A stretch of DNA of 64,000 bases, taken from positions 372,001 through 436,000 of the forward strand of contig NZ_VKKX01000022.1 of the NCBI RefSeq assembly GCF_008271655.1, given 5' to 3'. Each line of letters opens with the position of its first letter. Positions within the stretch are counted from its first letter, which is position 1. A model generated the notes under the pieces. That model was not told where the DNA came from, made no database searches, and saw only the letters and a list, made by a program, of their open reading frames with translations. The stretch comes from Gemmobacter caeruleus (lineage in GTDB: Bacteria; Pseudomonadota; Alphaproteobacteria; Rhodobacterales; Rhodobacteraceae). Positions 46,665 through 49,878 of the stretch are shown here, piece after piece. Both the position numbers and the translations under genes were made by a program.

Positions 46665-47241
46665 CCGCACGCCCTTTCCCGCCATCTTTTTCGACCGTCC
46701 CGCGCCCGAGGTCGCCCCCGATCTGATCGGTGCCTGGCTGCGGATCGGCGCCACCGCCGGCCTGATCACCGAAACCGAGGCTTACGGCGCCAACGACCCC
46801 GCCTCACACAGCTTTCGTGGCCCCACAGCGCGCAATGCGGCGATGTTCGGCCCGCCGGGGCATGCCTATGTCTATCGCTCCTACGGGGTGCATTGGTGCC
46901 TGAACGTGGTCTGCCGGCGCGGTGAGGCCGTGCTGTTTCGCGCGCTGGACCCGCAACTGGGCCTTGACCTGATGGCCGCGCGGCGCGGCGCCGATCGGCC
47001 GGCGTTGCTGGCCCGCGGGCCAGGGCGGCTGGGACAGGCGCTTGGCGTGACCCGCGCCTTGGACGGCCTGCGCTTTGACCAGCCCGACCTCTGCCTTTCG
47101 CCGGGCGAGACACCGGCAGTCCTGACCGGGACACGCATCGGAATCACCCGCGCGGCCGACCTGCCCTGGCGCTTTGGCTGGGCCGGCTCGCCGCATCTGT
47201 CGCGCCGCTTTCCCGCCACCACCGCCTCCGCCCCCGGCTGA
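46651..47241 (+). CDS. DNA-3-methyladenine glycosylase (AAG/MPG family)
   Basis: The enzyme removes alkylated and deaminated purines from DNA. The 196-residue protein has FFDRPAPEVAPDLIGAWLR, then ITETEAYGANDPASHSFRGP where the catalytic Glu lies, AMFGPPGHAYVYRSYGVHWC and LNVVCRRGEAVLFRAL, and ARGPGRLGQALGVTRAL. These match the AAG fold, and the size is standard. The only in-frame start near the homology is TTG at 46651 (MRCSDRTPF), overlapping the upstream small frame; this is an inference. Together with ogt at 3782 it provides a second alkylation repair path in the window. Confidence 0.92.
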   Translation: MRCSDRTPFPAIFFDRPAPEVAPDLIGAWLRIGATAGLITETEAYGANDPASHSFRGPTARNAAMFGPPGHAYVYRSYGVHWCLNVVCRRGEAVLFRALDPQLGLDLMAARRGADRPALLARGPGRLGQALGVTRALDGLRFDQPDLCLSPGETPAVLTGTRIGITRAADLPWRFGWAGSPHLSRRFPATTASAPG

Positions 47242-47317
47242 TCCCGCGCGCCGTCCGCAATTGCAGCGCCGCATGTCGCAATTCGCCCATGCGGCATGTC
47301 GTTTTTGCCGTAGCGTC

Positions 47318-47476
47318 AGCTTGCAAGGTGCCGCCTCGCGGAGAATTGGGAAGCCGGTGCAACCCCGGCGCTGCCCCCGCATCGGTGACGGAAGACCGCG
47401 TGCAGACCCCCGGGAGGTGCATCCCGGGCCGGTCGCAAGCGTCGCTTCCCCAGCCCGGATACCAGCCTTGCACGCT
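47318..47476 (+). ncRNA. Cobalamin (AdoCbl-type) riboswitch upstream of gbcA
   Basis: The aptamer closes with AGC-TTGCAAGG (47318-47328) pairing to CCTTGCA-C-GCT (47466-47476), forming P1. Inside are GGTGCC at 47327, AATTGGGAAGCCGGTG, the ACCCCGGCGCTGCCCCCGCA core with the conserved GCTGCCCCCGC run, GGTGACGG, a variable GC-rich arm (CCCCCGGGAGGTGCATCCCG), and the B12 box AGCCCGGATACCAGCC at 47452-47467. All are in the order and spacing of the cobalamin riboswitch. Downstream, 47487-47504 and 47525-47542 can form short stems, the second embedding a GGGGAGG run ahead of the start. It is expected to lower gbcAB expression when cobalamin is abundant; the control step, transcription or translation, cannot be told here. 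Confidence 0.92.
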
Positions 47477-47560
47477 ATGCGGGAATTGCGGCCCAGGGAC
47501 CGCAGCGCCCGTGCCAACAGGAAACGCCTGCGCGGGGAGGCGCGGGTCAGCGAGGATATG

Positions 47561-48796
47561 ATGCTCAGCCAGTCCGACATGCTGGCGCGCCTTGGCGCGC
47601 GCCGTCCGAATTATGCGCTCGATCAGGCGCTTTATTGCGATCCGGGCGTCTATGCCCATGATCTGCAACATATTTTCTATCGGGAATGGCTGTTCGCCAT
47701 CCCCGCCTGCGAATTGCCCAAGCCCGGCGCCTTTGCCACGCTTCAGATCGGCGCCTATCCGGTGGTGATCACGCGCGGCAATGACGGCATGATCCGCGCC
47801 TTCCACAATGTCTGCCGCCATCGCGGCCAGCGGCTTTGTGCGAAACCCACCGGCAGCAGCCCGAAACTGGTCTGCCCCTATCACCAGTGGACCTATGATC
47901 TGGATGGCAAGCTGCTTTATGCGCGCGACATGCAAGAGGGGTTCGACCCTGCGGAGCATGGGCTGAAAAAGGTGCATTGCGTCGATCTGGGCGGCATGGT
48001 CTTTGTCTGCCTGGCCGAGGTGCCGCCGCCGATCGCCGATCTGGCCAAGGTGATGATGCCCTATCTCGCCCCTTCGGGGCTGAAGAATGCCAAGGTCGCC
48101 CACAGCTCGACCATCGTCGAAAAGGGCAACTGGAAGCTGGTTATCGAAAACAACCGCGAATGCTATCACTGCGGCGGCTCGCACCCCTCGCTGTGCCGGA
48201 CCTATTCCGACAACCCGCGCATGACCGCGATGGAAGGCCCGGATTCGGCCAGCCCCGACATTCTCGCGCATTGGAAGCGCTGCGAGGCGGCGGGCCTGCC
48301 CTCGCGTTTCGTGAACCATCCGCGGATGCAGTGGCGGCTTGCGCGCATTCCGCTGCTGAACAATGCCGAAAGCTATACGATGTCCACCAAGGCCGCCGTG
48401 GCGCGACGCATGGGCACGATGCCATTCAGCGATGCCGGCAGCCTGCTGTTCTTCCACTATCCGAACACCTGGAACCACTTCCTGCCCGATCACGCGATCG
48501 TCTTCCGCATTCTGCCGATCAGCCCGACGGAGACCGAAGTGACGACGAAATGGCTAGTGCCCGAGGATGCGGTGGAAGGGGTGGATTACGATCTGCAAAA
48601 CCTGACCGAAGTCTGGATGAACACCAATGACGAAGACCGCCAGGTGGTCGAGGAAAATCAGGCCGGCATCCTGTCGCCCGCATATGAGCCCGGCCCCTAT
48701 TCGACGATCCAGGAAGAGGGCGTGATCCAGTTCGTTGACTGGTATTGCGGCACCATGACCGAGCGGCTGTCGCCCGCTTCCGTCGCGGCGGAGTGA
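47561..48796 (+). CDS. gbcA: Rieske non-heme iron oxygenase alpha subunit, glycine-betaine monooxygenase type (GbcA)
   Basis: The 411-residue protein matches GbcA, which oxidatively removes a methyl from glycine betaine to give dimethylglycine and formaldehyde. The Rieske [2Fe-2S] ligands are in CRHRGQRLC (Cys85, His87) and CPYHQWTYDL (Cys105, His108). The mononuclear iron ligands are in ENNRECYHCGGSHP (His203, His208), with the third acidic ligand further on. RYPNTWNHF-like FFHYPNTWNHFLPDHAIVFR and TTKWLVPEDAVEGVDYD complete the family pattern. An ATG one codon upstream (47558) is also possible; GAGGA precedes both. It lies 84 bp after a cobalamin riboswitch. Carnitine or stachydrine as substrate is possible, but GbcA is the closest in sequence that I recall. 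Confidence 0.9.
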   Translation: MLSQSDMLARLGARRPNYALDQALYCDPGVYAHDLQHIFYREWLFAIPACELPKPGAFATLQIGAYPVVITRGNDGMIRAFHNVCRHRGQRLCAKPTGSSPKLVCPYHQWTYDLDGKLLYARDMQEGFDPAEHGLKKVHCVDLGGMVFVCLAEVPPPIADLAKVMMPYLAPSGLKNAKVAHSSTIVEKGNWKLVIENNRECYHCGGSHPSLCRTYSDNPRMTAMEGPDSASPDILAHWKRCEAAGLPSRFVNHPRMQWRLARIPLLNNAESYTMSTKAAVARRMGTMPFSDAGSLLFFHYPNTWNHFLPDHAIVFRILPISPTETEVTTKWLVPEDAVEGVDYDLQNLTEVWMNTNDEDRQVVEENQAGILSPAYEPGPYSTIQEEGVIQFVDWYCGTMTERLSPASVAAE

Positions 48797-48801
48797 CCGG
48801 C

Positions 48802-49878
48802 ATGGGCAAGTATCGCGCCAATTGGTCGGCCGAGCCGTGGCAGGACAGCGAATTGCTGGAATGCGCCATGATCGTGCCGGAAACCAGCGACACGGCAACC
48901 TTCACCTTCCGCGCGCCTTCGGGCGCGTGGTTCGACTATCAGCCGGGGCAGTTCGTCACGCTGGATCTGCCGGTGCCCGGCGGCAATGTGCAGCGCACCT
49001 ATACGATTTCCTCCAGCCCGTCGCGGCCCTTGTCAATCTCCATCACGGCCAAGGCACAGGCGGACAGCATCGGCACGCGCTGGATGCTGGACCATCTGAA
49101 ACCGGGGATGAAGATCCGCGCCTATGGCCCCAACGGCATCTTCAGCTTTCACAAGCACCCGGCGCGGAAATACCTGTTCATCTCGGCAGGGTCGGGCATC
49201 ACCCCGATGATGGCGATGACGACCTGGGCCTGGGATTCGGGCGAGATGCCCGACATCGTCTTTGTCCATGCTGCCAAGCGCCCCTCCGAGATCATCTTCC
49301 GCGAACGGCTGGAGCAATTCGCCAATCGCGTGCCCGGCTTGCAGCTGCGCTTTACCGTGAAGGAGCCCGATCCCTTCCGCGTCTGGCACGGGTTCAGCGG
49401 GCGGCTCAACCAGATCATGCTGGGCCTGATGGCGCCGGATTATCTGGAACGCGAGGTGTTCTGCTGCGGGCCGGAGCCGTTCATGCAGGCGGTGCGCGAC
49501 ATGCTGAACGCGCTTGGCTATGACATGAGCCGCTATCATCAGGAAAGCTTTGGCGCCCCCGTCGCGACCGAGGCCGAGGCGCCGGTGCTGGACGATGTGG
49601 TGCCCGATGCCACGTCAAAGGCCAGCGTGACCTTCGCCGCCTCGGGCGTGACCACCGCCTGCGCCGAAACCGATACGGTGCTGGCCGTGGCGAAACGGTC
49701 GGGGCTGAACATCCCCTCGGGCTGCACCTTTGGCCTTTGCGGCACCTGCAAGGTGAAAAAGACCGAAGGCGAGGTGCATATGGTGCATAACGGCGGCATT
49801 TCCGACGAGGATATCGCCAAGGGCTATATCCTGGCCTGCTGTTCGCACCCCCTGGGCGCGGTCAGCGTCGAGGTCTGA
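48802..49878 (+). CDS. gbcB: Ferredoxin-NAD(P)H reductase partner of the Rieske oxygenase (GbcB)
   Basis: The 358-residue protein starts at the ATG at 48802, 5 bp after the gbcA stop. It has an FAD-binding ferredoxin-reductase domain (RTYTISSSPSRPLSISI, about 65-81), an NAD-binding part (KYLFISAGSGITPMMAMTTW, VFCCGPEPFMQAVRDML), and a C-terminal [2Fe-2S] domain with PSGCTFGLCGTCKVKKTEG and LACCSHP. This layout, flavin-NAD-ferredoxin, is the GbcB class that passes electrons from NADH to the Rieske centre of GbcA. The pair therefore forms a complete two-component oxygenase. A terminator-type hairpin follows. Confidence 0.93.
   Translation: MGKYRANWSAEPWQDSELLECAMIVPETSDTATFTFRAPSGAWFDYQPGQFVTLDLPVPGGNVQRTYTISSSPSRPLSISITAKAQADSIGTRWMLDHLKPGMKIRAYGPNGIFSFHKHPARKYLFISAGSGITPMMAMTTWAWDSGEMPDIVFVHAAKRPSEIIFRERLEQFANRVPGLQLRFTVKEPDPFRVWHGFSGRLNQIMLGLMAPDYLEREVFCCGPEPFMQAVRDMLNALGYDMSRYHQESFGAPVATEAEAPVLDDVVPDATSKASVTFAASGVTTACAETDTVLAVAKRSGLNIPSGCTFGLCGTCKVKKTEGEVHMVHNGGISDEDIAKGYILACCSHPLGAVSVEV

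Follow-up and report, generated by a model that had tools for sequence, protein, structure and literature searches.

Both covariance-model scoring and gene arrangement show a cobalamin riboswitch directly upstream of a two-gene operon encoding a Rieske oxygenase and its reductase in the window, i.e. the whole stretch of 64000 nucleotides of Gemmobacter caeruleus DNA analysed here, and we regard this observation as confirmed. Our preferred reading, to which we assign a probability of roughly 0.6, is that this RNA is an OFF-type translational switch on an O2-dependent, B12-independent demethylase, which would spare scarce corrinoid for methionine synthesis.

The aptamer corresponds to a match to RF00174 (Cobalamin) at window positions 47309–47484 on the + strand, which cmscan aligned over the full length of the model (1–189 of 189) with a score of 80.9 bits and an E-value of 2.4e-18. 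The gathering threshold is 31.5, and the aptamer that the original prediction had recognized in the sequence thus passes the covariance model. The same site was recovered in a search of the whole genome (3.99 Mb in 55 contigs), which contains five RF00174 sites, the other four of which lie, as judged by eye, upstream of CobW/COG0523-type and CbtA-type genes. In the window the aptamer is flanked by a DNA-3-methyladenine glycosylase gene, which ends at 47241, and by the oxygenase gene; the cmscan alignment places the last base of P1 at approximately 47477, so that the oxygenase start lies approximately 80–83 nt downstream, which bears out the predicted distance of 84 bp. Two elements of the aptamer can be picked out on the + strand: a short hairpin at 47370–47380 with a C-rich loop, GCUGCCCCCGC, which we take to be a candidate L5 and in which CUGCCCCCGC is invariant across an alignment of 33 leaders, and the stretch at 47452–47467, AGCCCGGATACCAGCC, which is the B12 box and carries one A>T change that is absent from all other aligned leaders (n=33).

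The first gene of the operon (47558–48796, + strand) encodes the alpha subunit of a Rieske oxygenase that belongs to the GbcA/Stc2-type family of quaternary-amine demethylases. Its start is at 47558 or 47561, with 47561 the more likely, as judged from orthologues and Shine–Dalgarno spacing. The Rieske and catalytic domains are both present (PF00355, 62.4 bits; PF00848, 130.6 bits), and residues Cys86, His88, Cys106, His109, His204, His209 and Asp360, which we take to be the metal ligands, are invariant in ten orthologues. After a gap of 5 nt there follows an FAD/NAD/2Fe-2S reductase gene of the GbcB type (48802–49878, + strand; PF00970, PF00175 and PF00111), giving an operon span of 47558–49878, and as the next gene, for an aspartate ammonia-lyase, is convergent, the operon comprises only these two genes.

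The target had been named gbcA, and the pair GbcAB, in the original prediction. This holds in so far as the best NCBIfam matches are GbcA (NF058607) and GbcB and the genes form a Rieske oxygenase/reductase pair, but both proteins score below the curated cut-offs (500.3 against an equivalog cut-off of 670 for the oxygenase and 374.3 against 500 for the reductase), and because of the former value we do not file the oxygenase as GbcA. As a separator of paralogues the GbcA cut-off proved uninformative, since no alphaproteobacterial member tested reaches 670, ten of ten relatives missing it with scores of 491.6–542.5 and one further member missing it as well (0/1). The glycine betaine mono-oxygenase GbcAB of Pseudomonas and Chromohalobacter, as best NCBIfam match, shares the two-gene oxygenase/reductase make-up, whereas the window operon, besides falling below the curated cut-off, has a riboswitch leader and lacks an OYE-type demethylase gene alongside. 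Among the structures in the PDB, 3n0q (594 bits) and the Stc2-type demethylase (3vca, 559 bits, and 4qup) are close full-length homologues of the oxygenase at 559–594 bits, 3vca being the stachydrine demethylase Stc2 itself; in a tree of 99 proteins, 3n0q groups among riboswitch-linked Roseobacter genes and 3vca in a group without the riboswitch.

The operon probably uses O2 to demethylate a quaternary amine, the most likely substrate being glycine betaine or a compound close to it, for instance proline betaine. An alternative of appreciable weight, although clearly short of an even chance, is that the same switch and the same logic serve another quaternary amine (proline betaine, hydroxyproline betaine or carnitine) that the oxygenase shares with another MttB-family protein. 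The sub-threshold GbcA score, the closeness of 3vca and the presence of five MttB-family matches in the window genome would fit such a substrate, as would a second, divergent GbcA-like oxygenase in genome G009 whose neighbours are genes for an MttB protein and a hydroxyproline-dehydratase-like protein. However, the missed GbcA cut-off says little when none of the other alphaproteobacterial members tested reached it (0/10 and 0/1), and the window genome possesses an MttB protein resembling the one beside MtgC in Sinorhizobium medicae. In G009 itself (L138:7149–12952) the second oxygenase gene is divergent from those for the MttB-family methyltransferase and the dehydratase-like protein, which places oxygen- and corrinoid-dependent demethylases next to each other; a similar pair of MttB and dehydratase-like genes, without an oxygenase, is found in the window genome at L137:10220–13015.

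The pairing of riboswitch and oxygenase gene recurs in relatives, which rules out chance as its origin. The oxygenase gene has a riboswitch immediately ahead of it on the same strand in seven of 20 loci from the window genome and related genomes and in 30 of the best 80 named relatives, so that 37 loci in all show a gbcA-like gene preceded by the aptamer; three of these (L007, L058 and L106) score below 38 bits and the L106 match is partial. The distance from aptamer to assigned start, measured in 33 leaders, is 63–144 nt. The hosts include Rhodobacter, Cypionkella, Pseudogemmobacter, Hoeflea, Ruegeria and Shimia, together with Sulfitobacter, Roseibium, Aquibium, Mesorhizobium and Sinorhizobium medicae. 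On the tree of 99 proteins the riboswitch label sits in three separated parts and needs 12 changes, at least seven of them forced, compared with a mean of 30 for shuffled labels. No riboswitch was found with any of the 13 Paracoccus sequences of the window's larger clade. No hidden RF00174 match emerged at E-values up to 5 at loci L010 (genome G006), L013 (G007), L014 (G056), L055, L061, L082, L088 and L096, and the remaining non-riboswitch loci were judged at the gathering cut-off. At the Pseudogemmobacter hezensis locus (L056:1902–2008) a TPP riboswitch on the opposite strand lies just upstream of the cobalamin riboswitch.

How well the window aptamer itself is conserved was assessed from an alignment of 33 of the 37 leaders (L012 and the three lowest scorers, L007, L058 and L106, being omitted), in which columns with at least 84% agreement were taken as conserved (n=86). 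The window aptamer deviates at ten of these 86 columns, the second highest number among the 33 leaders; one Roseibium leader deviates more, and six leaders show no deviation at all. The changes include the A>T in the B12 box, which converts GGAAACC into GGATACC, and an A>T in GCAACGG, and the CCACUG...GGGAAGG element is also altered. The core and B12 box had been described as well conserved: the conserved core, B12 box included, is indeed present despite these changes, and the full-length match and sound total score agree with that description, but it is overstated for an aptamer with this many altered columns and a substituted B12 box.

A decaying riboswitch that senses cobalamin poorly, so that control would be vestigial here and real in relatives, is a rather unlikely explanation, although one to which these deviations lend some substance. 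So does erosion within the genus, since the riboswitch of the same-genus genome G005 is weak (37.8 bits) and two others, G006 and G007, have no RF00174 match at the oxygenase gene at E-values up to 5 though they keep the hairpin near the ribosome-binding site. Against it stand the full-length match of 80.9 bits and the intact C-rich loop and ribosome-binding-site hairpin of the window leader. The two leaders concerned (L010:1385–1515 in G006 and L013:1385–1515 in G007) look as if the riboswitch had decayed around the hairpin, which is retained where the aptamer is undetectable.

The hairpin in question suggests how our preferred switch might act. At 47527–47546 (+ strand) a 7-bp stem, formed by CCUGCGC and GCGCGGG and closed by the loop GGGGAG, stops just 5′ of a Shine–Dalgarno-like GAGG at 47552–47555 (+ strand); the loop is complementary to the C-rich loop of the aptamer at 47370–47380, and we consider the hairpin a candidate P13/L13. 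Among nine distinct window-clade hairpins, which were chosen by eye from 16 aligned leaders for sharing this form, 95.2% of the pair cells form and both sides change in three of the seven pairs, and the covariation score of these rows, 0.270, exceeds the shuffled mean of 0.162, with slid versions scoring lower. A strict GGGG-loop hairpin near the start occurs in 14 of the 33 leaders, where shuffles would lead one to expect approximately one, and the remaining leaders have, by eye, different hairpins at the ribosome-binding site, so the platform is not uniform between clades. Thermodynamic folding of the window leader was no stronger than that of shuffled sequences (z 0.20). No terminator-like site was found on the + strand between the aptamer and the oxygenase gene, and this rules out an attenuator unrelated to that gene, a possibility that the original prediction had itself raised. 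Since there is no such terminator and the hairpin abuts the ribosome-binding site, the riboswitch likely controls translation of the oxygenase/reductase pair. With enough cobalamin the aptamer would bind its ligand and fold, its C-rich loop would dock on the hairpin in a predicted L5–L13 kissing loop, and the oxygenase/reductase pair would then not be made, as expected for an OFF-type switch.

A B12-independent enzyme under such control calls attention to the corrinoid-dependent route of the same cells. In Ruegeria pomeroyi, MtgC and MtgD have been reported to be needed for betaine demethylation and methionine synthesis alike, a dual role of the B12-dependent MtgC system described in 2025 (PMC12478193). 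We searched 62 genomes, 32 with the riboswitch and 30 without, for counterparts. MttB-family methyltransferases were found in all 32 riboswitch genomes and in 23 of the 30 others (Fisher p 0.004, kinship ignored), and within the window clade in 15 of 15 against three of eight (p 0.0017, kinship ignored). As a clean discriminator MttB presence fails in one direction, as those 23 non-riboswitch genomes have it too. Taking the lower of two PF02607 score groups as MtgC-type, we found such a score in 30/32 riboswitch genomes and 23/30 others (p 0.077, kinship ignored), the riboswitch-bearing genomes lacking a match being G005 and the metagenome-assembled G106. MetH-type proteins were less frequent with the riboswitch (11/32 compared with 20/30; p 0.02, kinship ignored). 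An MtgC-type protein was the sole type of methionine synthase in 19/32 compared with 10/30 genomes when only strong MetE matches were counted (p 0.047, kinship ignored), and this shrinks to 14/32 compared with 9/30 if, in a recount by hand, any PF01717 match is accepted as MetE. A kinship-aware pair test on the tree yielded five well-supported independent pairs, too few to decide.

The window genome has genes for MtgE-like, MtgC and DUF1638 proteins together, and its five MttB-family matches and MtgC make up the candidate B12-dependent counterpart; one of its MttB proteins shares 64% identity with the MttB encoded next to MtgC in S. medicae, and neither MetH nor a PF01717 MetE scored in this genome. 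In G005, whose riboswitch is low-scoring, the MttB family is represented by one match of lower score (E 1.8e-129). In G056 the orthologue is present without a riboswitch, and neither MttB nor an MtgC-type match occurs in that genome. G006, G126 (L061) and G128 (L071) have MttB and MtgC-type matches with no riboswitch at the window-clade gene.

The neighbourhoods of riboswitch and non-riboswitch copies also differ. An OYE-family gene, which we take to encode a DgcA/StcD-like demethylase, lies within approximately 2.5 kb of 16 of the 50 non-riboswitch copies and of none of the 30 riboswitch copies; such a neighbour typifies a cluster dedicated to catabolism. Conversely, a second RF00174 site is nearby in five of the 30 riboswitch copies and in none of the 50 others. 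This second site precedes nrdI-nrdE at L111 and an unnamed gene followed by the cobalt-transport gene cbiM at L083; at L120:2846–3060 it scores 136 bits and stands directly 3′ of the reductase gene and 5′ of a metal-type ABC ATPase gene, and extra RF00174 sites are also present near the oxygenase copy at L058 and L078. In genome G036 a second riboswitch lies ahead of nrdI-nrdE-nrdF. A core MetE gene adjoins the Hoeflea copy (L078), and CbiQ/CbiO-like cobalt-transport genes adjoin the L058 copy. Five Paracoccus loci (L065, L066, L067, L068 and L072) have the oxygenase gene and nrdI-nrdE in divergent orientation, with no cobalamin riboswitch above gathering in the stretch examined, and the locus of Paracoccus sp. 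MKU1 (L071:5562–5620) contains a match of 80.4 bits to the selenocysteine insertion element SECIS_3.

Cobalt-transport genes beside two riboswitch copies, together with the report that betaine increases the B12 yields of production strains (PMC8123684), could be taken to place the operon in the part of the regulon that serves cobalamin synthesis, low B12 leading to more betaine oxidation and hence to a supply of glycine and one-carbon units from which the corrin ring is built. We consider this improbable, as no cobalamin-synthesis gene was seen among the annotated neighbours, which are a subset of all neighbours, and the GbcAB reaction yields formaldehyde (PMC12478193), an indirect source of methyl groups.

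Cobalamin riboswitches are found on genes for B12-independent isozymes such as MetE and NrdAB/NrdEF. This category is known (Sun et al. 2013, PMC3766115), and the present case has in common with it the aptamer family and a target able to replace a B12-dependent enzyme, but here that target is an oxygen-using N-demethylase. The main text of PMC3766115, whose gene lists stand in supplements, has no words beginning with ‘betaine’ or ‘Rieske’, and the only places where ‘riboswitch’ and ‘Rieske’ turn up in PMC12478193 are the titles of cited papers. Within the open-licence PMC literature searched, we recognized no report of the riboswitch–oxygenase pairing, i.e. the kind of regulation is known and a betaine-type oxygenase as its target was not found there. 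The likely B12-dependent counterpart is the betaine methyltransferase/methionine synthase system MtgBCDE of R. pomeroyi (PMC12478193), which is corrinoid-dependent, unlike the window oxygenase, and of which the window genome has MtgC-, MtgE- and MttB-family homologues.

Taken in this context, the oxygenase/reductase pair probably serves the same cell as a B12-independent isozyme of the corrinoid route that runs through MttB-family proteins and MtgC, made when B12 is scarce and then demethylating the quaternary amine with O2. The original prediction had offered two models. In the first, scarcity of B12 lifts the repression of an oxidative, B12-independent route, which then takes the place of a corrinoid methyltransferase route; this model gains from the recurrence at 37 loci, the MttB family in 32/32 riboswitch genomes and the neighbouring B12-independent isozyme genes, but cobalamin binding, repression and substrate are steps that we infer. 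The second, that freed one-carbon units compensate for a weak MetH, was not borne out, as the window genome has only the MtgC-type system with no MetH or MetE scored. In a better form of it, use of the oxygenase when B12 is low would leave MtgC-bound corrinoid free for methionine synthesis, a role suggested because MtgC carries the methyl groups for methionine synthesis in R. pomeroyi and the window genome scored neither of the other synthases. The broader proposal, which we advance tentatively at a little under even odds, is that this is a B12-sparing valve with which several alphaproteobacterial lineages shift betaine demethylation from MtgC to the oxygenase at low B12, reserving MtgC for methionine.

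Betaine is abundant as an osmolyte. Should the proposed switch operate, it would explain why both demethylation routes are retained, and the choice between them would be testable through one RNA. Betaine use in soil and marine bacteria would likewise become predictable from B12 supply, and the valve, if true, would tie methionine supply, osmolyte catabolism, oxygen and B12 together through a single RNA.
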